Assembly (NCBI RefSeq): GCF_000023065.1
Contig: NC_012691.1
Coordinates: 2,772,501 to 2,836,500, forward strand
DNA from: Tolumonas auensis DSM 9187
Lineage (GTDB): Bacteria; Pseudomonadota; Gammaproteobacteria; Enterobacterales; Aeromonadaceae
Direction: 5' to 3'
DNA: 64,000 nucleotides
The translations under genes were made by a program, and so were the position numbers. Shown here piece by piece: positions 7,632 through 22,002 of this stretch (positions within the stretch are counted from its first letter, which is position 1; each line of letters opens with the position of its first letter). A model generated the notes under the pieces. That model made no database searches, was not told the origin of the DNA, and saw only the letters and a program-made list of their open reading frames with translations.

Positions 7632-9242
7632 TCACGATTCCGTCTCCTTGCCGGCATAAGGCAGGGTCACGATAAAGCTGGCACCCCGGTCCGGGTTGTT
7701 CCGGCATTCAATCGAACTGTCTTCCAGCTTTGCCAGACTTTGTTTGACCAGATAGAGACCCAGCCCCCGCTGTGTTCCCTTGGTGGAAAAACCGCGCTCG
7801 AAAATATGGGGGATCACTTCCGGTGGAATACCCTTCCCGTTATCTTTGACAACACAAAACAGGGAACCCTCTTCGTAATCCAGTGCCACCGTGATGGTCG
7901 GATCCGGGACGCCTTCCAGAGCATCAATGGCATTTTCCAGCAGATTGCCGAGAATCGTCACCAGAGCATGAGGCTGATCCAGCTGGCTGGATTCTGGCAG
8001 GAAACTATCCTCGGTGACGATCACTGTAATTCCCGCTTCACGCGCCCGGTTGATTTTACCCAGCAGAAATCCGGCAATGACCGGGTCTTTAATTTGACGG
8101 ATCAATGCACCGACATCACTGTGATATTGCCCTGCAATCCCCATGATGTAATGTTCCAGCTGCTCAAAAGCCCGGATATTCACCATGCCCAGAATGACTT
8201 GCAACTTGTTCATAAACTCGTGCGCCTGCATACGCAGCGCTTCCGCATAATTCGACATGCCGCTGAGGCGTTGAACCAGCTGACTGACCTCTGTTTTGTC
8301 ACGGAACGACATGACAGCCCCGACGATCGTTCCGTTCACCCGCACCGGTACACTACTGCTCAGCAAAACCAGCCCGTTAAACTTCAGTTCTTCATCATAC
8401 TGAGCAACGCCCGTCTGCAGTACTTCTTGTAAATGCAGACGCTTCGGCCAGTTTTTACTGCCCTGCTCCTGCAGCAGTTCATCGGACGAACCGCTCAGCC
8501 GTAACAGACGTTTTGCCTCATCATTGATCAGCGTAATTTCAGACTGCGCATTGACGGCAATCACACCCTCACGAATCGATTGCAACATCGCACTGCGTTG
8601 CTCCAGTAAACTGGCGATTTCGGAGGGTTCCAGGCCAAACATGATCGCTTTGATTTTACGGGCCAGATAAAACGCACCTACCGCGCCGACCAATCCGCCA
8701 AATAACAACGCCAGATAAGCAAACAGGAGGTTGGCCGAGATAATCGCCTCTACTTTAGCGGTCGAGATCCCTACCGCGATGGCCCCAACCTGTCGGCCAT
8801 TATGATAGAGCGGGCTAATCACACGCACTGAATTACCCAGTGTGCCTTTCGCTTCTGAAATGTATTCCTCTCCGTGCAGAGCTTTTATCTGATCCCCCCC
8901 CTGAAAACGCAGACCTATCATTTTGGGATCAGGATGTGTATGACGGATCGCATCCATGTCCATCACCACAATAAACAGCAGTTCATTCCGCTTGCGTACC
9001 GATTCGATATAGCCCTGCAAGGCTTGCTGCTGTTCCGGAATAGTGAGCGCCGCACCGACAAAAGGTGTTTCGGTCAGTGTACGGGCCACGCCCCGGGCCT
9101 TTTCTTCCAGACTGTTTTTACTGAGCGCCGTCGATTGCGTGACAAATATGGCATGCACCACCAGTAAAACCAGTGCAATCACGGTACAAACAAGCAAAGT
9201 AATTCGGGTACGAAGTTTCAGAGGAGAAGACAGTCCGAGCAC
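7632..9242 (-). CDS. dcuS: C4-dicarboxylate sensor histidine kinase, DcuS type
   Basis: Membrane sensor kinase of the CitA/DcuS family. It has a transmembrane helix (about 13-34), a periplasmic PAS sensor, a second helix (about 171-194), a cytoplasmic PAS domain (about 215-320), and a kinase domain with the phospho-acceptor His in AHEFMNKLQV (about residue 341) plus N-box NLLENAIDAL and G-boxes DNGKGIP and GLGLYLVKQ. The fumarate-site residues known in E. coli DcuS (Arg and His in a RxxHP motif, and a later Arg in RVxxP) are present here as RHTHP and RVISP. AAAGGAG is placed better for the GTG at 9242 than for the TTG at 9245. The matching regulator is not adjacent but lies at 17.5-18.2 kb; fumarase, transporter, reductase and apbE lie between. 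Confidence 0.9.
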   Translation of the reverse strand: MLGLSSPLKLRTRITLLVCTVIALVLLVVHAIFVTQSTALSKNSLEEKARGVARTLTETPFVGAALTIPEQQQALQGYIESVRKRNELLFIVVMDMDAIRHTHPDPKMIGLRFQGGDQIKALHGEEYISEAKGTLGNSVRVISPLYHNGRQVGAIAVGISTAKVEAIISANLLFAYLALLFGGLVGAVGAFYLARKIKAIMFGLEPSEIASLLEQRSAMLQSIREGVIAVNAQSEITLINDEAKRLLRLSGSSDELLQEQGSKNWPKRLHLQEVLQTGVAQYDEELKFNGLVLLSSSVPVRVNGTIVGAVMSFRDKTEVSQLVQRLSGMSNYAEALRMQAHEFMNKLQVILGMVNIRAFEQLEHYIMGIAGQYHSDVGALIRQIKDPVIAGFLLGKINRAREAGITVIVTEDSFLPESSQLDQPHALVTILGNLLENAIDALEGVPDPTITVALDYEEGSLFCVVKDNGKGIPPEVIPHIFERGFSTKGTQRGLGLYLVKQSLAKLEDSSIECRNNPDRGASFIVTLPYAGKETES

Positions 9243-9401
9243 CAACGCTACTCCTTTCAGAGAGACAAACCGGATGGTTCGCTAAAATAGTGAACATGAA
9301 GATACGGAAAATAATGAGAAACCGTGAACAACTCCAGCTGAATTTTACGAATATTCAGCAAGACGATACGGAGAAGCAACTTCGGCGAGGCTTAGTTAAA
9401 A

Positions 9402-9430
9402 AAATCCAGTGACTTGTGGTCACTGGATTT
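9402..9430 (-). terminator. Strong terminator after the fumarase gene
   Basis: Twelve-base perfect stem AAATCCAGTGAC/GTCACTGGATTT with a five-base loop, continuing into seven Ts on the minus strand. Confidence 0.9.
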
Positions 9431-9459
9431 CCGTCTGATTTACAGGTCAATCCGACTGA

Positions 9460-11109
9460 TTACTTCATCGTACAGTTGGCACACTGTTTGTTCAGGATCT
9501 GCTGGTAGAAATCATTGCCTTTATCATCGACCAGAATAAACGCCGGGAAGTTTTCCACTTCAATCTTCCAGATCGCTTCCATACCCAGTTCCGGATATTC
9601 CACACATTCCAGGCTCTTGATACTCTCCTGCGCCAGAACGGCAGCCGGGCCACCAATGCTGCCCAGATAGAAGCCACCGTGTTTATGGCACGCATCTGTA
9701 ACCTGCTGGCTACGGTTGCCTTTCGCCAGCATGATCATGCTGCCGCCATGTGACTGCAGCAGATCAACGTAAGAATCCATACGACCTGCCGTAGTCGGGC
9801 CTAAAGAACCAGAGGCGTAACCAGCCGGAGTTTTGGCCGGGCCAGCGTAATAGATTGGATGATCTTTCACGTATTGCGGCAGACCTTCGCCTTTATCCAG
9901 ACGCTCTTTCAGTTTCGCGTGGGCAATGTCACGACCTACGATGATAGTACCGGACAGAGACAGACGAGTAGCCACCGGATATTGAGAAAGCTGAGCCAGG
10001 ATCTCTTGCATCGGACGGTTCAGATCAACCTGAACGGCATCACCTTCCCCTTGCTGACGCAGTTCTTCAGGGATGTACTGCGCCGGATTGCTTTCCAGTT
10101 TCTCAATCCAGATACCATCGCGGTTGATTTTCGCTTTGATATTACGGTCAGCAGAGCAGGAAACACCCATACCAAGCGGACAAGATGCACCGTGACGCGG
10201 CAGACGGATCACGCGGATATCATGCGCGAAATATTTACCACCAAACTGAGCACCCAGACCCAGATTCTGCGCTTCTTTCAGCAGTTCCTGTTCCAGCTGA
10301 ACATCACGGAATGCCTGACCATGCTCGTTACCTTCGGTTGGCAGCGCATCATAGTAATGCGTAGAAGCCAGTTTCACGGTTTTCAGCGTGCTTTCCGCAG
10401 AGGTGCCACCAATTACAAATGCAATGTGGTATGGCGGGCAGGCTGCAGTTCCCAGCGAACGCATTTTATCGACCAGGAATTTTTTCAGTGTGTCCGGAGT
10501 CAGCAGTGCTTTAGTTTCCTGATACAGGTAGGTTTTGTTGGCTGAACCACCACCTTTGGCGACACACAGAAATTTGTATTCATCGCCATTGACGCTGTAA
10601 AGGTCGATTTGAGCCGGCAGGTTTGTCCCTGTATTCACTTCTTTGTACATATCCAGCGCGGCATTCTGGGAGTAACGCAGATTGTCTTCTGTATAGGTAT
10701 TGTAAACACCCCGGGTCAGGGCTGCTTCATCATCACCACCGGTCCAGACACGCTGGCCTTTTTTCCCCATGATGAGGGCTGTACCGGTATCCTGACAGGT
10801 AGGCAGAACGCCTTTGGCTGAAATTTCTGAGTTACGCAGGAATTGCAGCGCAACATATTTGTCGTTTTCGCTGGCTTCCGGATCATGAAGAATAGCGGCA
10901 ACCTGCTTCTGGTGGGACGTCCGCAGCATGAAGGATGCATCATGAAAAGCCTGCTGAGCCAGTAAAGTCAGACCTTCAGGTGCGACTTTCAGGATCTCCT
11001 GACCTTCGAATTCGCTCACGGAGACATGATCTTTCGTCAGCAGATAGTATTCGGTTTCATCTTTAGCGAGCGGGAACGGATCCTGGTAATAAAAAGGTTT
11101 ATTTGGCAT
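9460..11109 (-). CDS. fumB: Class I fumarate hydratase (FumA/FumB)
   Basis: Iron-sulfur fumarase that interconverts malate and fumarate in the cytoplasm. Length 549, against 548 for E. coli FumA and FumB. Candidate cluster cysteines lie in [10 protein letters not shown], in [11 protein letters not shown] and in GASCPLGMG. The C-terminal beta-domain carries [20 protein letters not shown] and GPTTAGRMD. FumA and FumB cannot be told apart by eye; FumB is suggested only by the setting, with dcuS downstream, a dicarboxylate antiporter upstream and fumarate reductase divergent. In that setting it would feed malate-derived fumarate to the reductase. A hairpin at 11195 separates it from the transporter gene, so it may be expressed partly by readthrough. 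Confidence 0.93.
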
Positions 11110-11194
11110 TTCTCTATTCTCTCATCATTATTTATCGCCGCTTTAGCAAGAATACATCTACATGCGTGGCAGCACAGATTCACATATAGAAACA

Positions 11195-11213
11195 GCCGCC
11201 CCGGAGGGTCGGC
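11195..11213 (-). terminator. Hairpin between antiporter and fumarase genes
   Basis: GC-rich stem GCCGACCC/GGGGCGGC with one mismatch and a three-base loop on the minus strand, followed by TGTTTCT. It may attenuate transcription between the two leftward genes. Confidence 0.5.
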
Positions 11214-11223
11214 CGTTCACTGA

Positions 11224-12735
11224 TCAGAACATCATGACCATCCATGGGTAACCGATGACTAACAAGGCTACCAGGAAGATGGCACCAAAAATGGTTCCCA
11301 GTCGCCAGTAATCGGCGGTTGGCAGGTAACCACTACCATAGTAAATCGGGCTCGGACCAGTGCCGTATGGGGTGATAATGCCCATCACACCCAGCGATGT
11401 CACCATCAGCATACAGAAGACTTCCATATTCATTCCCGGAATCGTCGATGCAATGGTCAGCATCGCAGGAAGCAGCGCCGTGGTGTGCGCTGTTGCGCTG
11501 GCAAATAAATAATGTAGCAGGTAGAACGCCACCAACAACATAACTGTCGCGGTGCCGGCGGAGATACCGCTCATCAGCATGCCGCCTTCTTTACCCAACC
11601 AGGCAATGAAACCGGTCGATGATAATCCGCCCGCCAGTGCAACCAGTGTCGCGAACCAGAAAAAGGTGTTCCATGCGGCTTTGTTACTGGTGATGTCGTT
11701 CCACTCCAGAACCCCCGTCCACAGCATCAGACCGATGATCAGCAGTGCAGCCATCGCAGGTTCAATCACGCTGGCAGCGAAGATCCACATGATCAGCGCA
11801 GCACAAACGAAGACCAGCAGCAGAATTTCATTCCGGGACAGACGACCCAGTTTAACCAGCTCGGCACTTGCCCAGCGAGGTACTTCATCGTTGAATTTCA
11901 CTTCTGGCGGATAGAACCAGTACGCCAGCAGCGGCATGGTCAGAAGAAACAGAATGCCCAGCGGGAGGAAGGCAACAAACCAGTTTCCCCAGCTGATGCT
12001 GATACCCACGGTACTTTTTACCAGTGCCAGTGCCAGCAGGTTCGGTGCCAGCGCAGACAGGAACATCGAACTGGTGATACAGGTCGCGGTGATCGCCACC
12101 CACATCAGGTAAGAGCCGATTTTACGTGCACTCGGATCGTTCGGTTTAGAGCCGTACAGCGGTGGCAGGTTGGCAATAATCGGGTAGATAGTTCCCCCAC
12201 TGCGTGCGGTATTCGATGGTGTAAACGGTGCCAGCAGCAGATCCGCAAACATGATCGCATAACCCAGTGTCAGGCTGCGACGTCCCAGATACTTCACCAG
12301 AATCAATGCCAGACGGCGTCCGAGGCGGGTTTTATCGTAGCCCGCGGCAAACATGAACGCACCAAAGATCAGCCATACCGTGGAATTACCAAATCCACTG
12401 ACGGCCCATTTGAATGATTCAGCAGCCAGTTTGAATTTAGGGGCAGCCATATCTTCAGGACTGAACAGCACCCACTGACTGGTCAGTGCGATCGCGACCA
12501 CCCCGGTCAGGCCAATGACCGCGCCTGGTAGCGGTTCAAAGATCAGACCGACGATAACCCCAACGAAAATGGCAAAGTAATACCATGCGTAGGGTTGTAA
12601 TCCTTCGGGGACTGGCATCAACAGCAATAGAGCCGTCACCACGAACGGAGCCAACATAAAGAAGAGGCGGTTTAACTTACCATCTGATGCTTTATCGACC
12701 AACTGAGTGTCGATTGGTATACTCATTTCTTTCAT
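11224..12735 (-). CDS. DASS-family dicarboxylate antiporter (CitT/TtdT-like)
   Basis: Inner-membrane anion transporter of the DASS (SLC13-like) family, 503 residues with about a dozen hydrophobic segments. Two family signature loops are visible: APFTPSNTARSGG in the first half and ASATAHTTALLPA in the second. Bacterial members close to this one (CitT, TtdT) exchange citrate, tartrate or other dicarboxylates for succinate. In this setting, malate or fumarate uptake against succinate export is the likely job; the substrate cannot be read from the sequence. ATGs at 12735 and 12726 are both possible starts, neither with a good Shine-Dalgarno. It is divergent from the fumarate reductase gene across an 877-base regulatory gap. 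Confidence 0.87.
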   Translation of the reverse strand: MKEMSIPIDTQLVDKASDGKLNRLFFMLAPFVVTALLLLMPVPEGLQPYAWYYFAIFVGVIVGLIFEPLPGAVIGLTGVVAIALTSQWVLFSPEDMAAPKFKLAAESFKWAVSGFGNSTVWLIFGAFMFAAGYDKTRLGRRLALILVKYLGRRSLTLGYAIMFADLLLAPFTPSNTARSGGTIYPIIANLPPLYGSKPNDPSARKIGSYLMWVAITATCITSSMFLSALAPNLLALALVKSTVGISISWGNWFVAFLPLGILFLLTMPLLAYWFYPPEVKFNDEVPRWASAELVKLGRLSRNEILLLVFVCAALIMWIFAASVIEPAMAALLIIGLMLWTGVLEWNDITSNKAAWNTFFWFATLVALAGGLSSTGFIAWLGKEGGMLMSGISAGTATVMLLVAFYLLHYLFASATAHTTALLPAMLTIASTIPGMNMEVFCMLMVTSLGVMGIITPYGTGPSPIYYGSGYLPTADYWRLGTIFGAIFLVALLVIGYPWMVMMF

Positions 12736-13612
12736 AGTGTTTATCTACAGTAGTTGAGAATCTGGTTTCATCGACATATGCAATGCATGGTCTTACTGCT
12801 TAAAAGACGCACACATAACCTGCTCCCGGAAATATTCCAAATCAGGAAACATGCCGGATTATTATTAAAATAAGCCCGCTTTGATTAATTTAATTTATTT
12901 ACTTAGTTTAGTTTCAAAAGTGATGACAAATTAATTTTCATTAACACTGATTTTGGCATTTAACAATGCAAAATCATTTAGCGCGTATATTGTGCAGTAT
13001 AATCACTTTTTAAAAAAACAGCAGGTGATCTTGATCAAAGTTTAATAAAAACGTTCGATTGGCTCGTATCGCAAAATAACAACCAAACGTTTATCCGATT
13101 TTATTCCCAGAAATATAATTTACGATTCAGTCGATAACCAATCGTCTTACCATAGATTAGACTTAAATGATCTCTCTGTATATTGAGCCATGCAGACTCA
13201 CCACAACACACTTATAAGATATTGATTTTATTACTTATTAAATTTTATTGTTATATTTGTGTTATTTATTTGAAAACACTTTATTAATGAATTTATGAAT
13301 AATTGTGATTAATGTGAAATATTTACCCTTAGTAAAAAAAGAAGTGACAAACACATATTAACGATAACAAACAATAGTTATTTAACTAATGTAAGCAAAC
13401 TTATCGCTAAAAATAAAATACTATGTTTGTGTGAGTTGATTAAATTTAACCAATGCTAATCAAATCTCGCTAAATCACGTGAGTTAAACCTAGTTAAAAA
13501 ATAGTTTTTATTGCAATAAGAATTAACCTAATACCAATCCAGAAATAATAAAAATATCCAACGGGAACCTATTTCTTAAATCTCTGAGTTTTTTAGTTTG
13601 GAGCTTATATTT
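12736..13612. promoter_or_regulatory. Large AT-rich divergent control region (antiporter / fumarate reductase)
   Basis: An 877-base non-coding region, clearly more AT-rich than its surroundings. It contains an FNR/CRP-like site at 13025-13038, a 12-base palindrome TTATTGCAATAA at 13508-13519, and repeated GTGAGTT words near 13431 and 13480. No open frame with a credible start and no classical hairpin terminator was seen. Its length and composition suggest binding by several regulators (DcuR, FNR, CRP or H-NS are candidates by analogy), but specific DcuR sites cannot be assigned by eye. A small RNA cannot be excluded. Confidence 0.55.
13025..13038. promoter_or_regulatory. FNR-like site (overlapping a CRP-like pattern)
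   Basis: GTGATCTTGATCAA matches the FNR consensus TTGAT-N4-ATCAA at nine of ten positions. The same bases give GGTGA-N6-TCAAA, a weaker CRP pattern. It lies about 290 bases before the antiporter start and about 575 before the reductase start. Confidence 0.5.
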
Positions 13613-16393
13613 ATGTACTCTAAAAATGACATTCTGAGTCCATTTACTTTACCGAATGGCACACAACTGAAAAACCGTCTTCTGATGGCACCAATGACCA
13701 CTTGTACCGGCTATTTCGATGGTAGTGTCACCAGTGAACTGGTTGAATACTACCGTGAACGCGCTGGCAGCATTGGTACGGTGATCGTTGAATGTGGTTT
13801 TGTTGATGACAGAGGCTTGGCTTTTCCTGGCGCGATCGGTATCGATCACGACAACAAAATTGAAGGTCTGGCAAAAATTGCTGAAGCCATTCAGGCCAGA
13901 GGCTCGAAAGCTGTTCTGCAGATCTATCACGGCGGCCGGATGGTCGAACCTGAACTGATTGGTGGCCGTACCCCGGTTGGCCCAAGTGCAATTGCAGCAC
14001 CACGTGAAGGCGCGGCGACTCCCGAAGCACTGACTGCGGAAGAAGTCGAAGCGATGGTCACCAAGTTTGGTGAAGCGACCCGCCGCGCGATTAAAGCCGG
14101 ATTTGATGGCGTCGAGATCCACGGTGCCAATACTTACCTGATCCAGCAGTTCTTCTCCCCCAATTCAAACCAGCGTGACGATCAATGGGGTGGCAGCCGT
14201 GAAAACCGCGCCCGCTTCCCGCTGGCGGTGCTGGAAATCACCCGGAAAATGGTTCGCCAGTATGCCGATCCATCCTTCATCATCGGCTACCGTTTCTCTC
14301 CGGAAGAGCTGGAAGTGCCAGGTATCCGTTTTGATGACACCCTGTATCTGCTGGAAAGACTGGCTGAACAGGGGCTGCATTACCTGCACTTCTCGATGGG
14401 CTATACACTGCGTCCATCCATTGTTGACAAGCACGATCCAACACCGCTGATCCGGAAATATACTGCGCTGCGTTCTGAAAAACTGGCGCAAATCCCGATG
14501 ATCGGGGTGGGTGGTATCGTCAACAAATCCGATGCTGAACTCGCCATCGAGCATGGCTACGATCTGGTTGCCGTCGGTAAAGCCTGCATTGCCTATCCGG
14601 ACTGGACCGATCGCATTGCCCGTGGTGAAACAGTGGAGCTGTTCATCGACAGCACGCAACGCGAAGCATTAACCATTCCTGAACCGTTATGGCGCTTCTC
14701 GCTGGTCGACGCGATGATCCGCGATCTGAGCAGCATGCCAACCGGCAAATTCAAGAGTGGCATGTTCCGGGAAACAGTTCAGGACGAAAACAATGAACTG
14801 GGAATCAATGTCAGTCTGGAAACTGACCGGATTACAGATATCGTACTGGAATCGCAGGAAGGTCTGGATGTTACTTTTGTTTCCAGTTTCGAAGAAATCC
14901 GTACCCGTATTCTGGATGCCAACACCCCTCACGTTGATGCTGTTTCTGGTGCAACCACGCAGAGTGAAGCGGTGAAAAAAGCTGTGACCAAAGCGATGGC
15001 GAAATCCTGCAAAGCGCTGGTACTGGAAGAAGGTGGCAGTCTGGAGCCGCCTCGTTACGACGTTGTGGTGATCGGTAGTGGTGGTGCTGGTCTGGCAGCA
15101 GCCATCCAGGCCAGCGACCGTGACACCAAAGTTCTGATTGTCGAAAAGATGTCCAGCATTGGCGGGAATACCATCAAAGCGTCTGTCGGCATGAATGCCG
15201 CAGGTACCCGTTTCCAGAAAATGAAAGGTATCGATGACTGCAAAGAGAAGTTCTATCAGGAAAGTCTGAAAGGCGGTCAGGGGCTGAATAACCCGGAATT
15301 GCTGCGCAGCTTTGTCGACAATGCGCCTGAAGCGGTTGAATGGCTGGCGGATCGTGGCATTGTCCTGAATGACATCACGATTACTGGCGGGATGAGCATT
15401 GACCGTACCCACCGTCCGGCTGACCGTTCTGCAGTAGGTGGCTTCCTGATCAGTGGTCTGGTGCGGAACATCAGCCAGCGCGACATCGACGTCATGCTGG
15501 ACACCGATGTCATCGATATCCTGATGGAAAACGGTGCCGTCAGCGGTCTGCGGGTGAAAAATGAAGAAAATGAAATTCTGACCATTTATGCGAAGAGCAT
15601 CGTGGTCGCAACCGGTGGCTTCAGTGCCAATCAGGAAATGGTGGTCAAATATCGCCCTGAACTGAAAGACTTTGTCACCACCAACCACAAAGGCGCAACC
15701 GGATCAGGGATCGCGTTACTGGAAAACATCGGTGCCGGTACTGTGGACATGGGTGAAATCCAGATCCACCCGACTGTGGAACAGACCACTTCCTACCTGA
15801 TTTCTGAAGCAATCCGTGGTGGTGGTGCGATTCTGGTCAGCCAGAAAGGCGAACGTTTCTTCAATGAAATGGAAACCCGCGACAAGGTTTCTGCAGCGAT
15901 CATCGGTCTGCCGGAACACTATGCCTACATCGTTTTCGATGAGCAGGTTCGTCTGAACAACAAAGCGGCAGACGAATACATTGGCCGTGGTTTTGTAGTC
16001 AGTGCTGACAGCCCCCGTCAACTGGCCGACAAACTGAATATGGATATGCATGCCTTCCTGGCTACACTGGAACGCTACAACGTCTTTGTTGAGAAACAGA
16101 ATGATGAAGACTTTGGTCGTAAGACTGCATTACGTCATCCGATCCACGAAGGTCCGTTCTACGCGATTCAGATCGCCCCGGGTGTGCATCACACCATGGG
16201 CGGGGTCACCGTCAACACCAACACCGAAGTGCTGGATGTGAACAATCAGGTGATTCCGGGCGTATTCGCTGCCGGTGAAGTGGTTGGTGGTATCCATGGC
16301 GGGAACCGTATCGGTGGTAATGCGGTTGCTGATATCATTATCTTCGGTACGATGGCCGGACGAAACGCCGCTAACCTGGCGCGTTGTTCATAG
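13613..16393 (+). CDS. NADH-dependent fumarate reductase, three flavin domains (OYE / FMN_bind / FAD)
   Basis: A 926-residue protein without a signal peptide, so cytoplasmic. Residues about 1-370 form an old-yellow-enzyme-type barrel (HGANTYLIQQFFSPNSN, WGGSRENR), the likely NADH-oxidising FMN domain. Residues about 380-470 are an FMN_bind domain whose DAVSGAT motif carries the threonine (about 448) that ApbE would flavinylate. Residues about 483-926 are a flavocytochrome-c-type FAD domain (VVVIGSGGAGLAAA, ending near GGIHGGNRIGGNA). Fumarate-reductase active-site residues are present: His in IHPT (about 719), Glu in SEAIRG (732) and the proton-donor Arg in ETRDKVS (756). Serine replaces the Thr usually before that Glu. 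Enzymes with this architecture are known as NADH:fumarate oxidoreductase in Klebsiella and as acrylate reductase in Vibrio. Fumarate is favoured here by the neighbours. GGAG at 13600 supports the ATG at 13613. Confidence 0.88.
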   Translation: MYSKNDILSPFTLPNGTQLKNRLLMAPMTTCTGYFDGSVTSELVEYYRERAGSIGTVIVECGFVDDRGLAFPGAIGIDHDNKIEGLAKIAEAIQARGSKAVLQIYHGGRMVEPELIGGRTPVGPSAIAAPREGAATPEALTAEEVEAMVTKFGEATRRAIKAGFDGVEIHGANTYLIQQFFSPNSNQRDDQWGGSRENRARFPLAVLEITRKMVRQYADPSFIIGYRFSPEELEVPGIRFDDTLYLLERLAEQGLHYLHFSMGYTLRPSIVDKHDPTPLIRKYTALRSEKLAQIPMIGVGGIVNKSDAELAIEHGYDLVAVGKACIAYPDWTDRIARGETVELFIDSTQREALTIPEPLWRFSLVDAMIRDLSSMPTGKFKSGMFRETVQDENNELGINVSLETDRITDIVLESQEGLDVTFVSSFEEIRTRILDANTPHVDAVSGATTQSEAVKKAVTKAMAKSCKALVLEEGGSLEPPRYDVVVIGSGGAGLAAAIQASDRDTKVLIVEKMSSIGGNTIKASVGMNAAGTRFQKMKGIDDCKEKFYQESLKGGQGLNNPELLRSFVDNAPEAVEWLADRGIVLNDITITGGMSIDRTHRPADRSAVGGFLISGLVRNISQRDIDVMLDTDVIDILMENGAVSGLRVKNEENEILTIYAKSIVVATGGFSANQEMVVKYRPELKDFVTTNHKGATGSGIALLENIGAGTVDMGEIQIHPTVEQTTSYLISEAIRGGGAILVSQKGERFFNEMETRDKVSAAIIGLPEHYAYIVFDEQVRLNNKAADEYIGRGFVVSADSPRQLADKLNMDMHAFLATLERYNVFVEKQNDEDFGRKTALRHPIHEGPFYAIQIAPGVHHTMGGVTVNTNTEVLDVNNQVIPGVFAAGEVVGGIHGGNRIGGNAVADIIIFGTMAGRNAANLARCS

Positions 16394-16463
16394 CCACGTG
16401 TTTGCCAGTGCGCTCCGGGTGAGTGCACTGGCTTTCAACCACTATTCAACCGGGGTGATCCCT

Positions 16464-17429
16464 ATGTCATCCGTAGAACGGGTCTATTCTTACTCCGCTG
16501 TCCTGATGGGCTCCCCCATCCTCCTGAAACTCTTCGAAGATAATCAACAAGCCGCCCAGGCCGTCTTTCACCTGATCAAGCAACAGGAAGATATGCTGAC
16601 GGTGAATCGTGCACACTCGCAACTGATGACCATCAATCATGCCGCCGGTTTGCACCCGGTGGTAGTCAGTCGTCCGGTGTTTGAGCTGATCAGCAAAGCG
16701 AAAACCGTCAGTCTGATGCAAGACAGCTGTTTTAATTTCACCATTGGCCCGCTGGTCAAGCGCTGGAAAATCGGTTTTCACGGCGACACCGTGCCGTCTC
16801 CGGCAGAAATCCAGTCTCTGTTGCCGCTGACCCGTCCGGATCAGGTCATGCTCGACCCGCAGGCCTGTTCCGTTTATCTGGCACAGGCAGGCATGGAAAT
16901 CGATCTGGGTGCGATTGCCAAAGGCTATATTGCCGATCGGGTACGGGATCTGCTGCAGCAGATGGGCATTCATCAGGCGCTGATTAATCTGGGTGGAAAC
17001 GTCCTGACACTCGGAACCCCTCGCTATGGAGATCAGAGTGCATGGGGAGTCGGGTTAAAAAAACCGTTTGCCGCCCCGGATGCGCTGATTGGCATCATCG
17101 AAGTGGCCGGCAAGTCGGTGGTCACATCCGGCATTTATGAGCGTTATTTTGAGCAAGAGGGAAAGATCTACCACCATATTCTGGATCCGGAGACCGGCTA
17201 TCCGCTGGATAACGAACTGCTCAGTGTCACCGTGATCTCAGACGACTCGGTGGATGGCGATATTTACACCACGTTGCTGTATGGCATGGGCGTAAAGAAA
17301 GCCCTGCACTATCTCACCACCGTGCCCCATATTGAGGCGATCTTTGTCACCCGAACCGGTCAGGTGATTCTGTCGTCACAACGCCAGTTCCGCTTCACCT
17401 TACAGGATAGCGACTACCAGCTGGCGTAA
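16464..17429 (+). CDS. apbE: FAD:protein FMN transferase ApbE
   Basis: Flavin transferase that attaches FMN from FAD to a threonine in the D-x-x-(S/T)-G-A-T motif. Its obvious client is the FMN_bind domain encoded just upstream. Family motifs are the glycine-rich stretch with MEIDLGAIAKGYIAD, then NLGGNVLTLG, and the metal-site region HHILDPETGYP. Length 321 with the ATG at 16464, preceded by GGGGTG at 16452-16457; the frame runs further upstream into the reductase gene, but that extension is not ApbE-like. No lipobox or signal peptide is visible, so it should act in the cytoplasm, which fits a cytoplasmic client. The 70-base gap suggests co-transcription with the reductase. Confidence 0.92.
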   Translation: MSSVERVYSYSAVLMGSPILLKLFEDNQQAAQAVFHLIKQQEDMLTVNRAHSQLMTINHAAGLHPVVVSRPVFELISKAKTVSLMQDSCFNFTIGPLVKRWKIGFHGDTVPSPAEIQSLLPLTRPDQVMLDPQACSVYLAQAGMEIDLGAIAKGYIADRVRDLLQQMGIHQALINLGGNVLTLGTPRYGDQSAWGVGLKKPFAAPDALIGIIEVAGKSVVTSGIYERYFEQEGKIYHHILDPETGYPLDNELLSVTVISDDSVDGDIYTTLLYGMGVKKALHYLTTVPHIEAIFVTRTGQVILSSQRQFRFTLQDSDYQLA

Positions 17430-17453
17430 TCTGTCGGCAGGCTCAGTCAGCGG

Positions 17454-18188
17454 TTAATCCTGAGCATACTGTTTCAACCGGGCATGCAGTTCCGGCTGTA
17501 AGCGGTAACGGTAAACCGGTCTGCCGGTCATGCCGTAATGGACACTGGTGTGCAGGATCTTGATCTCTTCCAGCCAGACCAGATATTTTCGGCAGGAGAC
17601 GCGTGAAATCAGTACCGAGCTGGCAAGATCTTCCGTCGAGAAATCAATGCCTGAATGACTGTCAATCCACTGACAGATGGTGCGCAGGGTTTGCGGGGTT
17701 AAGCCCTTCGGTAACCGTTTGGCTTCACCTTCCGGACGCTGTGCCTGCATCGGGGTACCGTGGATGATGCGATCCAGTTCCGACTGCTGATAATTCTGCT
17801 GATTGTCCATCAGCGTCTTTTTCTTTGCCCAGCTGGTTAATGCTTCCTCAAACCGGGCAAACTGGAAAGGCTTGATCAGATAATCGACCACACCGTAATG
17901 CAGTGACTTCTTGATGGTTTCCGCATCGGAAGCGGAAGAAATCATGATCACATCAATCGGACGATGCGCGTTACGCAGCACCGGCAGCAGATCCAGACCA
18001 TTTTCCTGCTGCATATAGACATCCAGCAGGATCAGGTCGATTGGATGCTGATGGTTTAACACCAGCGCTTTCGCCTGTTCCAGAGTTGAGGCCACACCAC
18101 AGCATTGAAACCCACGAAGCTGGGTAACATAGCGGTGGTTCAGCTCGGCAACCATGGCATCATCATCGACAATTAAAACATTGATCAC
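17454..18188 (-). CDS. dcuR: Response regulator of C4-dicarboxylate metabolism, DcuR type
   Basis: CitB/DcuR-family response regulator, 244 residues (E. coli DcuR 239). The receiver domain (1-120) has the acidic pocket VDDDAM, phospho-acceptor Asp56 in LILLDVYM, the Ser-Ser pair in MISSASD, and Lys106 in LIKPFQF. The C-terminal helix-turn-helix (about 165-235) contains FSTEDLASSVLISRVSCRKYL. It starts at a GTG with GGGAGG upstream. It is convergent with apbE (24-base gap). The only matching sensor in the window is dcuS, 8.2 kb away at the other end of the same functional block, so the pair is physically split. Confidence 0.9.
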   Translation of the reverse strand: MINVLIVDDDAMVAELNHRYVTQLRGFQCCGVASTLEQAKALVLNHQHPIDLILLDVYMQQENGLDLLPVLRNAHRPIDVIMISSASDAETIKKSLHYGVVDYLIKPFQFARFEEALTSWAKKKTLMDNQQNYQQSELDRIIHGTPMQAQRPEGEAKRLPKGLTPQTLRTICQWIDSHSGIDFSTEDLASSVLISRVSCRKYLVWLEEIKILHTSVHYGMTGRPVYRYRLQPELHARLKQYAQD

Positions 18189-18295: not shown

Positions 18296-19330
18296 TCAAG
18301 CCTGCTCACAACGAAAGATCACCGGCTGATGCGGGCGCAAGCGTAATGATACGGCCGTGGTACTGATCGGCATTGAATCAGCGTGCCAGGCGTCCAGCTC
18401 CATCCCCTGCCAGTGAATGCGGCAATGGGCATGCGTGCCGAGAAAATGCTGCTCAATTAACCGGCCATCACCCCCTTCCACAATCTCAAGCCATTGCGGC
18501 CGGATAAACATCATCAGATCGGGGTGATCCGGTACCTGATTCACCGGTATGACGCCCCACGGGGTGAGCACCGACTGATCACTCTGGCGGGTCACGGGTA
18601 CGCGGTTCCCTTTGCCGAGAAATTCAGCCACGTACAGGTTAGCCGGCTGATGATACACGGCACTGGCCTCCCCTTGCTGGACAATGTTGCCTTGCTGAAA
18701 CACCGCCAGCTCATCGGCCAGACTAAACGCTTCTTCCTTATTGTGCGTCACAAAAATCGCGGTAATGTGCTGTGATTTCAGTAAATCGCGGATCTCGCGG
18801 ATCAGCGGGATCCGTAACTGGCTGTCGATATTGGAAAATGGTTCATCCAGCAACATCAGTTTCGGACGACAGACCAGTGAGCGGGCAATCGCCACCCGCT
18901 GCTGCTGGCCGCCGGACAACTCATGCGGATAACGTTTGTCCATGCCGGACAGCCCGACAGTCGTCAAGGTAGAGGCGATGCGTTCTTCGGCATCCTGTTT
19001 TTTCAGGCGTAACGGCCGCAACCCGAACATCAGGTTGTCATGCACAGTCATGTGCGGAAACAGCGCATAATCCTGAAAGATAAAACCCACACCGCGCTCT
19101 TCCGGATCCAGCCCTTTATGCCCATCCTGTACCTGCTGGTCATGCAGATAGATCTGCCCGTGATCAATGGGGATCAGTCCGGCGATCGCTTTCAGCAAGG
19201 TGGTCTTGCCACAGCCACTCGGGCCGAGCAGCGCCAGTATTTTCCGTTCTTCCAGAACAAAGGAGACATTCTGCAGAATAGCCTGCTCCTGATAGCCGCA
19301 CTGCAGGTTGTGAATTTCAATGGCGTTCAT
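18296..19330 (-). CDS. fbpC: Ferric iron ABC transporter ATPase, FbpC type
   Basis: Cytoplasmic ATPase of a ferric-iron-type ABC importer, 344 residues. Walker A GPSGCGKTT, signature LSGGQQQRVAIAR and Walker B LMLLDEPF are all present, with a switch His in FVTHNKEEA, followed by a C-terminal TOBE-like regulatory region (about 240-344). Its start overlaps the end of the permease gene by four bases (ATGA-type coupling). It is the last gene of fbpA-fbpB-fbpC. Polyamine or sulfate ATPases are similar, but the partner proteins point to iron. Confidence 0.9.
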   Translation of the reverse strand: MNAIEIHNLQCGYQEQAILQNVSFVLEERKILALLGPSGCGKTTLLKAIAGLIPIDHGQIYLHDQQVQDGHKGLDPEERGVGFIFQDYALFPHMTVHDNLMFGLRPLRLKKQDAEERIASTLTTVGLSGMDKRYPHELSGGQQQRVAIARSLVCRPKLMLLDEPFSNIDSQLRIPLIREIRDLLKSQHITAIFVTHNKEEAFSLADELAVFQQGNIVQQGEASAVYHQPANLYVAEFLGKGNRVPVTRQSDQSVLTPWGVIPVNQVPDHPDLMMFIRPQWLEIVEGGDGRLIEQHFLGTHAHCRIHWQGMELDAWHADSMPISTTAVSLRLRPHQPVIFRCEQA

Positions 19331-20961
19331 GTTATTCCCCGTTCCAGCGAGCGGTTAAAGAAAATCAGCGGTAATAACCCCACCAGCACGATCATCAGCG
19401 CCGGTAAGGCGCCCAGCTGTAACTGCTCGGTTTTGACATACTGATAAACAATGGTCGGTAACGTTTCAAAATTAAACGGGCGCAGTAATAACGCGGCAGG
19501 CAGCTCTTTCATGGATTCAATAAAAATCAGCACGATCCCCGCCATGATGCCGCGCCACATCAGCGGTAAATGTACGCGGGCGAACATCGGTAACGGGTAA
19601 TAACCCAGACTGCGGCTGACCATGTCCAGACTGAAGGAAATGCGGGCCAGTGAGCTTTCCTGACTGCCCAGGGCAATCGCAATGAAACGCACCACATAGG
19701 CACAGACCAGCGCAAAAATAGTTCCGGTCAGGATCAACCCCGGCTCTTGCCAGCCGAAGGCTGCGATAACGTCATTCAGCAGGAAATCACCCAGCGTAAA
19801 CGGGATCAGAATACCAATCGCTAACACCGTACCCGGCATGGCATAACCGATACCCGCGATTTGCAGCGCCTGTACGCCCGGCTTATTGGGTAACAGACGA
19901 CGGGTCAGCACCAGCGGCAAGGCCAGAATGGCTGCCAGTGCTGCAACCGCCAGCGCGATTTGCAGACTGTTAAAACTGTATTGCAGCAGTGCCGGCCAGT
20001 CCTGTTCCGCCAGTGCCGACAGGGCATAATCCAGCAACACCAGCACGGGCAAGAAGAAACCCAGAAACACAATCAGCCAGCAATATCCCAGCGACAGCAT
20101 CAATTTGCTGCCTGCCAGACGGGGACGATTATGAACGGGAATACCGTTTCCTTTCTGAAAGATCTGCTGCCGGCGGCGGCTCATCTTTTCCAGCAGGATC
20201 AGGAGCACCACTATCGAGATCAGGCAGACCGAAAGCTGTGCGGCGGAAGGCAGGCTGCCATAACCCAGCCAGGCATCGGTGATCGCCGTCGTCAGGGTAT
20301 TCACGGCAAAATAGGAGACCGTGCCAAAATCGGCCAGCGTTTCCATCGCCACCAGAATCATGGCGCCGATTAATGCCGGCCGGACCAAGGGCAGACTGAT
20401 GCGGAAAAAACGCCGCCAGTGATTGGCACCCAGCATCCGGCCGGCATCCTGCAGATTGATCGATTGTTCCAGAAAGCCGGCGCGGGTCAGCAGATAGACA
20501 TACGGATAGAGCACCAATGCCAGCATGGCAGCGGCACCGCCTAAGGTCCGCAGATCCGGAAACCAGTAATCGGCGGCCGATTGCCAGCCAAACAAGTCAC
20601 GCAGCTGTATTTGTAACCAGCCGGTGTAATCGAGTAAATCGGTGTAGATATAGGCCACAACATAAGCCGGCATCGCCAGCGGCAGGATCAGCGCCCATTC
20701 AAGATAGCGGTGCCCCGGTAACTGATAATTCGCCAGCAACCAGCCACAAGGCAATCCCAGCAATACGGCAAAGATAACCACCAGCGTAACCAGGGCCAGA
20801 GAATTGAAAAGATAGGTGGGTAATACCGTCTGCCAGAGCTGTTGCAGCAAGCCGGCATCCGTACTGAAGGCTTCAATCAATAAAGCCATTACAGGTGAAA
20901 ACAGCAGCAGAGCTAGTGCTCCGCTGCCAGCTAACCAGCGACGATGGCGTACAACTGCCAT
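19327..20961 (-). CDS. fbpB: Ferric iron ABC transporter permease, FbpB type (fused double permease)
   Basis: Inner-membrane permease of 544 residues made of two homologous halves, each ending with an EAA-type ATPase-contact loop: one in QDAGRMLGANHWRRFFRISLP and one in SLDMVSRSLGYYPLPMFARV. About twelve hydrophobic segments are visible. The fused two-domain layout is typical of the FbpB/SfuB iron family. It lies nine bases after fbpA and overlaps fbpC by four bases, so the three are one operon under the Fur box at 21984. Confidence 0.9.
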   Translation of the reverse strand: MAVVRHRRWLAGSGALALLLFSPVMALLIEAFSTDAGLLQQLWQTVLPTYLFNSLALVTLVVIFAVLLGLPCGWLLANYQLPGHRYLEWALILPLAMPAYVVAYIYTDLLDYTGWLQIQLRDLFGWQSAADYWFPDLRTLGGAAAMLALVLYPYVYLLTRAGFLEQSINLQDAGRMLGANHWRRFFRISLPLVRPALIGAMILVAMETLADFGTVSYFAVNTLTTAITDAWLGYGSLPSAAQLSVCLISIVVLLILLEKMSRRRQQIFQKGNGIPVHNRPRLAGSKLMLSLGYCWLIVFLGFFLPVLVLLDYALSALAEQDWPALLQYSFNSLQIALAVAALAAILALPLVLTRRLLPNKPGVQALQIAGIGYAMPGTVLAIGILIPFTLGDFLLNDVIAAFGWQEPGLILTGTIFALVCAYVVRFIAIALGSQESSLARISFSLDMVSRSLGYYPLPMFARVHLPLMWRGIMAGIVLIFIESMKELPAALLLRPFNFETLPTIVYQYVKTEQLQLGALPALMIVLVGLLPLIFFNRSLERGIT

Positions 20962-20970
20962 TAAATATCC

Positions 20971-21969
20971 TTACAGATCAAATTTAACTTTGTCGATCAG
21001 GGTTATCGCTTGTTTACGATAAGAAGCAATCTGAGCGATTGGCAGCGCATCGGCCTTGTATTCGCCCCATGAAGCGACCAGCCTGGATGGCGCGACACCC
21101 GCCTTCACCGGATACTCCATGTTCAGTTCGGCATACATCTGTTGTGCTTTATCCGCCGAGAGGTATTCCATCAGCTTGACTGCCGCGTCTTTGTTCTTGG
21201 CATATTTGGTCATCACAACCCCGCTCACGTTGACATGAGCACCACGATCTTTCTGGTTCGGGAAGTTGATATAAACAGCGTCAGCCCAGGTTTTCTGCTC
21301 TTCATCCTGCAGCATTTTGCCCAGGTAATAGCTGTTACCCAGTGACAGATCACACACGCCTTCCTTGATGGCTTTAACCTGATCGCGGTCATTGCCCTGT
21401 GGTTTACGCGCCAGGTTGGCCTTCAGCCCTTCCAGCCATTGTTCCGCCTTTGCTTCACCGTGATGAGCAATCATCGAAGCAACCAATGCGACGTTATAAG
21501 AGTTTTTACCGCTACGGGTACAAATCTTACCTTTGTATTTCTCGTCAGCCAGTGACTCGTAGGTAATATCATCTGGCTTGCCGACACGCTCTTTAGAGGT
21601 GTAAATATTGCGGACACGGGTAGTCAGGGCAAACCAGCGGTTGTCCGGATCACGGTACTGAGCCGGAATATTACTGTTCAGCGTTTGGCTATTAACAGGT
21701 TGCACCAGATCCTGCTCGACCAGTTCCATCAGGCGACTAATGTCGACCGTCAGTACCAGATCAGCCGGCGTATGTTTCCCTTCACGGGCCAGACGCTCTG
21801 CCAGACCATCTTCGGCATACACCAGATTCACTTTGATACCCTGTTCTTTTTCAAACGCCTGAACGATAGGCTCAATCAGATAAGCCTGACGGGCAGAATA
21901 AACATTAATTTCTTCCGCCGCCTGAACAGAACCCGCCACCAGTAAAGCCAACAACGCTACTTTTGTCAT
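20971..21969 (-). CDS. fbpA: Periplasmic ferric iron-binding protein, FbpA type
   Basis: Periplasmic solute receptor of the iron importer. The signal peptide is MTKVALLALLVAGSVQA with cleavage before AEEINVYSAR. The mature protein has the family start NVYSARQAYLIEPIV and the iron-ligand region around GNSYYLGKML, where tyrosines of the YY pair coordinate iron in relatives. 332 residues from the ATG at 21969; an upstream in-frame TTG at 21984 is disfavoured because the signal peptide then starts oddly. First gene of the operon, directly downstream of a strong Fur box. Confidence 0.9.
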   Translation of the reverse strand: MTKVALLALLVAGSVQAAEEINVYSARQAYLIEPIVQAFEKEQGIKVNLVYAEDGLAERLAREGKHTPADLVLTVDISRLMELVEQDLVQPVNSQTLNSNIPAQYRDPDNRWFALTTRVRNIYTSKERVGKPDDITYESLADEKYKGKICTRSGKNSYNVALVASMIAHHGEAKAEQWLEGLKANLARKPQGNDRDQVKAIKEGVCDLSLGNSYYLGKMLQDEEQKTWADAVYINFPNQKDRGAHVNVSGVVMTKYAKNKDAAVKLMEYLSADKAQQMYAELNMEYPVKAGVAPSRLVASWGEYKADALPIAQIASYRKQAITLIDKVKFDL

Positions 21970-21983
21970 TACGTATCCATCCA

Positions 21984-22002
21984 ACTAATGAGAATCATTA
22001 TC
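21984..22002. promoter_or_regulatory. Fur box controlling fbpABC
   Basis: The 19 bases ending AATGAGAATCATTATC match the GATAATGATAATCATTATC consensus at about 16 positions. Further ATAATGAT and GATATCATTTG words follow to about 22030, suggesting overlapping sites. It lies 15 bases before the fbpA ATG. Confidence 0.85.

Follow-up and report, generated by a model that had tools for sequence, protein, structure and literature searches.

The question raised by positions 7632 to 18188 of the stretch of Tolumonas auensis DSM 9187 DNA analysed here (the window, 64,000 nucleotides, at C1:2772501-2836500; the genome is one contig of 3,471,292 bases) is whether the six genes that lie there form one system by which electrons are passed from NADH to fumarate in the cytoplasm, and how such a system came to be flanked by a sensor kinase and a response regulator that apparently belong to separate family lineages. 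The explanation of the whole that we favour, with good confidence, is that the locus is an NADH:fumarate oxidoreductase cluster of the KPK_2907 type, with probable FNR and DcuR control and with its DcuS exchanged for another. Since KPK_2907 of Klebsiella pneumoniae has been published, the enzyme kind is already known, and the T. auensis locus is, as judged from its sequence, another member of it.

The central gene encodes a fumarate reductase (FRD; 13613..16393, plus strand) in which the domains OYE, FMN_bind and FAD_binding_2 follow one another in a single chain; the listed frame begins at a TTG at 13598, but the ATG at 13613, which lies behind a GGAG, is the likelier start. The chain scores 256 bits for Oxidored_FMN (cut-off 27) and 275 bits for FAD_binding_2 (cut-off 20). 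It carries the flavinylation motif DAVSGAT, in which Thr453 would be the FMN acceptor, and the general motif is given as D-x-x-[ST]-G-A-[ST] in passages of PMC12052999. An alignment with flavocytochrome c3 (Fcc3) covers 443 residues of the FAD domain and sets H724, E737, R740, R761, H864 and R904 opposite H365, E378, R381, R402, H504 and R544 of the Fcc3 chain, for which fumarate-binding and proton-path roles are described in passages of PMC7921117, those of H504 and R544 only in part. This catalytic set is common to all 22 fumarate-type rows of a residue table that also holds 7 other rows and omits the FRD rows of loci L054 and L061 (stop in translation); one of the 22 ends before R904 and the neighbouring column.

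The residues at these positions also bear on the substrate. Three rows from Vibrio, Photobacterium and Endozoicomonas (L064, L066 and L067; 39% identity) and a fourth, L016 of genome G012, have M/G/P at three of the fumarate-residue places; we take these four to be acrylate-reductase-like, and L064 to represent the Vibrio NADH-dependent acrylate reductase kind. The M/G/P set of NADH:acrylate reductase is absent from the T. auensis FRD, which has H/E/R there, and the Tyr of the UrdA type is likewise absent, the substrate-binding position being a His (H724). Specificity for acrylate or urocanate was set aside on these residues, and both acids are unlikely substrates. The G012 enzyme (L016/L043), from a genome of the same family, likewise has three domains and an ApbE of its own; its overall identity is 43%, it shows M/G/P like the Vibrio-type enzymes, and it is probably the reductase of another acid. 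Three-domain proteins of Streptococcus and Enterococcus (L065, L068 and L069) lack the Fcc3 catalytic letters in a region where the alignment is unsure; they have Ser at the FMN-acceptor place and no ApbE match nearby.

The reductase gene is followed on the plus strand by apbE (16464..17429, its start corrected to the ATG at 16464), whose product scores 277 bits for the ApbE domain (cut-off 26). By N-termini and hydropathy only, this protein has no signal peptide, nor has the reductase, and the second ApbE of the genome starts like a lipoprotein; K. pneumoniae has two ApbEs with the same split between a cytoplasmic and a lipoprotein-like form, according to passages of PMC12052999. The remaining four genes lie on the minus strand. 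They encode a class I fumarase (9460..11109; 1213 bits, cut-off 1094; 88% identical to E. coli FumB and FumA), a TtdT-like DASS dicarboxylate transporter (11224..12735; 490 bits, cut-off 199), a sensor kinase of the DcuS/MalK subfamily (7632..9245; 672 bits, cut-off 520), which scores 486 bits, below the cut-off of 800, against the MalK malate kinase model NF038334, and a DcuR response regulator (17454..18188; 414 bits to the equivalog model, cut-off 262). The preliminary description of this DNA had named the same six genes, and its frames and positions hold: all six reading frames are open, and each exceeds its family cut-off in profile searches. Composition is uninformative, the G+C content of the six genes being 51-54% against 51% for the whole window.

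Taken together, these functions suggest the following scheme. The DASS transporter would import malate, fumarate or related acids in exchange for succinate, and the fumarase, from what is known of its family, would convert malate to fumarate. The OYE domain would take a hydride from NADH, and the electrons would then cross the FMN on Thr453, attached by the local ApbE, to the FAD, at which fumarate would be reduced to succinate, so that NAD+ would be regenerated without quinone. By this route T. auensis probably disposes of excess electrons on fumarate when oxygen is lacking, an idea that carries the Klebsiella finding over to Tolumonas.

Gene order was compared in 36 loci, of which 20 lie outside Tolumonas and encode a fumarate-type FRD at least 66% identical (L042, L046-L063 and L098; L093 is absent from the gene-order rows because of a coverage filter). 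Most of these 20 loci come from a search of genome contigs, from among its best 80 matches, and are not a census; "Tolumonas" here denotes genomes listed as the same genus. Among the matches listed, the layout in which fumA and the DASS gene diverge from FRD and apbE is found again outside Tolumonas, and the conservation of this order in other genera argues against a chance arrangement. In K. michiganensis all genes of the set are present, and the FRD is 76% identical to that of T. auensis. Both DASS and fumA lie divergently upstream in 16 of the 20 loci (L053 and L054 have DASS only, L060 has neither, and L062 is at a contig end), and dcuR followed by dcuS lies past apbE in 14. ApbE is downstream of FRD in 18, the exceptions being L053 and L054, and this position, the family score and the missing signal peptide support its predicted role as the local cytoplasmic flavin transferase of the reductase. 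L053 (Winslowiella) and L054 (Pantoea) have DASS and FRD, and no apbE, fumA or FNR box was found in the stretch examined. In a separate neighbourhood set of 61 genomes, a fumarate-type FRD is present in 9 of 11 Tolumonas genomes (partial in G008; G001 and G007, which lack it, are fragmented drafts), in none of 26 others of the same family, and in one (G054) of 24 others of the same order. This patchy occurrence fits horizontal spread. A cytoplasmic, quinone-free NADH-to-fumarate reaction, as first proposed for this DNA, is thus backed as a prediction by domain architecture, active-site residues and gene order.

The same proposal had described the locus as self-contained, and this was overstated. 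The possibility that T. auensis lacks a membrane fumarate reductase was rejected, because frdABCD was found at about C1:2.722-2.725 Mb, some 47 kb before the window (FrdC, at 135 bits, is under the NCBIfam cut-off of 143 and over that of Pfam), and the soluble enzyme is for this reason no stand-in for a missing membrane one. A profile search of the genome gave no match to DcuA or DcuB; it does hold one DcuC-family protein and one further, weaker DASS protein elsewhere. The soluble FRD is accordingly an addition to the membrane enzyme. The assignment of the transporter as a DASS antiporter stands as regards the family and its likeness to E. coli TtdT (57% identity), which is annotated as an L-tartrate:succinate antiporter, while the export of succinate by exchange is a prediction. 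The label of sodium-coupled symporter is carried by the family models and, among the best relatives of solved structure, by 6wu1/6wtw, presumably LaINDY; the others are two chloroplast dicarboxylate transporters.

Induction without oxygen by fumarate or malate is expected of enzymes of the KPK_2907 kind, and the divergent control region between DASS and FRD (12736..13612, 28% G+C) was compared with its counterparts in this respect, using the FNR consensus. Of 24 divergent DASS-FRD regions, 18 contain TTGATNNNNATCAA without mismatch and 21 contain it when one mismatch is allowed, against 0.004 and 0.088 matches per region, respectively, in first-order random sequences. The 24 regions are those of the window, five other Tolumonas genomes, G054 and 17 others, with G004, G008, G010, L060 and L062 outside the count for want of a complete DASS-FRD sequence; the one-mismatch match of L059 is at another position, and L053, L054 and L057 have none. 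The window copy lies at 13025..13038, and the weight of this candidate control element would come from its conservation across regions. A CRP site was also sought in the divergent region and rejected, with no consistent match in 15 loci, and scans for promoter-like sites (8 against 11.5 in shuffles) and terminator-like sites (15 against 10.9) were left unused. With DcuS and DcuR present at the locus and the FNR box conserved elsewhere, expression would probably be activated by FNR when oxygen is absent and by DcuR in response to C4-dicarboxylates.

The control by dicarboxylates that had been proposed for the locus holds as far as the DcuS and DcuR families go, but the two proteins are unlike one inherited pair. 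DcuS and DcuR each have two close representatives in the genome. One of each lies at an end of the locus, and the others form an adjacent core pair at C1:239797-242093, next to a malic-enzyme-like gene and a symporter of CCS type (498 bits, cut-off 549) in what is perhaps a malate operon (L197, C1:234000-248000). The window DcuR has mean identities of 67% to the DcuR of Enterobacterales clusters, 67.5% to that of E. coli and 54% to core DcuR; the window DcuS has 43% to cluster DcuS, 45% to that of E. coli and 63% to core DcuS. Trees were built without far outgroups from 33 DcuR and 34 DcuS rows, the set from split loci including the orphan DcuR of G002 and two extra DcuS of G008, with the DcuS of draft G010 and that of G007 (L172, which has two stops) left out. 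In these, split DcuR groups with Enterobacterales at 100/100 and its grouping with core is rejected (p 1.5e-5), whereas split DcuS groups with core at 100/100 and its grouping with Enterobacterales is rejected (p 1.1e-4). The window DcuS sits between argR and fumA in T. auensis (G000), G004, G005 and G008, all of which also have the cluster DcuR; in G002 the cluster DcuR is present but a second close DcuS is not; and both are missing in G003, G006, G009 and draft G010. Two further similar DcuS copies in G008 (L136 and L145), a 70% complete draft, may reflect a strain mixture.

It is moderately probable that the cluster arrived with a two-component pair of its own, that the kinase of this pair was lost in Tolumonas, and that the cluster was then rewired to a host kinase of malate-operon-like lineage, which later came to lie at its far end. 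On the favoured explanation, the T. auensis group has lost the original DcuS of the cluster, and the core-lineage DcuS at the other end would presumably drive the cluster's DcuR. The steps may be represented in living relatives by genomes with no cluster pair (G003, G006, G009 and G010), with an orphan regulator (G002), and with a regulator and swapped kinase (G000, G004, G005 and G008). The window DcuS retains R107, H110 and R147, which passages of PMC12772337 give as pocket residues, and has Ile in place of F149, as do all 8 core DcuS; its signal may lean to malate.

Several observations weigh against the explanation favoured here. The FMN_bind match in FRD is weak (27.5 bits, cut-off 22); the window copy of the FNR box carries one mismatch, and 4 one-mismatch FNR-like sites were found in the window against 3.3 expected by chance; dcuR and dcuS are missing in 6 of the 20 loci; the Klebsiella FRD used for comparison is that of K. 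michiganensis and not the K. pneumoniae enzyme itself; and DcuS and DcuR are non-adjacent in the window, so that their pairing is presumptive. With far, long-branched outgroups, moreover, DcuS groups with core at only 88/93. As regards the enzyme itself, the substrate residues of FRD vary among close architectural relatives, and Fcc3 M375 and T377 are replaced by Leu and Ser in T. auensis, so that a different unsaturated acid might be the main substrate and fumarate a side one; this is quite improbable given the complete fumarate residue set, with His where UrdA has Tyr, and the fumarase and C4 transport genes that adjoin FRD in most of the loci.

The alternatives that concern the two-component proteins are less remote. 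The kinase at 7632 might serve the core DcuR and not the regulator at 17454, which would then be under the control of the core DcuS or of the two kinases together. The phosphoacceptor helix of this DcuS is core-like, G002 retains the cluster DcuR without a second close DcuS, and a terminator-like hairpin between dcuS and fumA (9404..9428, 3' of fumA, seen by eye and absent from the terminator scan's list) suggests that dcuS is its own transcription unit. We nevertheless consider this arrangement doubtful, because the cluster DcuR occurs in all four genomes that have this DcuS; the first helix of DcuR is, in addition, much alike in all groups, so that either pairing is possible and crosstalk between both sets is likely. 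A single history for kinase and regulator, in which the trees would conflict because of unequal rates, because of long branches or because the swap took place in Pectobacterium and not in Tolumonas, is unlikely. The conflict could lie in the Pectobacterium rows because far outgroups were omitted; with those outgroups the DcuS alternative stands at p 0.055, and long branches meeting are flagged in the far-outgroup trees and, for DcuR, in the trees without them. DcuR, however, rejects the core grouping even with far outgroups (p 0.0076), the locus position of DcuS differs too, and the identities differ in kind, that of the window DcuS to E. coli (45%) being like that of core DcuS (46%) and that of the window DcuR (67.5%) like that of cluster DcuR (69.6%). 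If the exchange of kinase is confirmed, the split DcuS and DcuR of mixed origin would provide a natural series for two-component partner change, with several states within one genus.

Beyond dcuR, three genes at 18296-21984 adjoin it that look by eye like an iron(III)-type ABC importer, and the first of these also adjoins dcuR in G004, G005 and G008.

No description of the T. auensis locus or of a DcuS swap was found among the open-licence papers listed in the searches. In enzymes of the KPK_2907 kind, reportedly described by Bertsova (2014, 2020), a single chain combines OYE, FMN_bind and FAD_binding_2. T. auensis shares with KPK_2907 this architecture, the covalent-FMN motif and a cytoplasmic ApbE; it differs in that its dcuS is at the other end and of another lineage. 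The K. pneumoniae enzyme is presented as a soluble NADH:fumarate oxidoreductase with a cytoplasmic ApbE in passages of PMC4348036, PMC12052999 and PMC11325843. For Gilliamella, passages of PMC11325843 describe an NADH-dependent Frd thought to be horizontally acquired and report that no fumarate transporter was found and that frdAB was lost, whereas T. auensis has both a transporter and frdABCD. The Vibrio acrylate reductase kind, as represented by L064, shares the three-domain build and likewise has an ApbE next to it, but is 39% identical, with M/G/P for three fumarate residues. Fcc3 shares the FAD domain and the catalytic set, and UrdA the FAD domain; according to passages of PMC7921117, Fcc3 has a haem domain and UrdA, a protein of the periplasm, has an FMN domain, and the OYE domain of T. 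auensis has no counterpart in the matched Fcc3 and UrdA chains. In E. coli, finally, dcuS-dcuR lies beside dcuB-fumB, so that the same regulator family stands next to a fumarase and a C4 carrier in both organisms, with an adjacent pair and DcuB in E. coli and a split pair and DASS in T. auensis.

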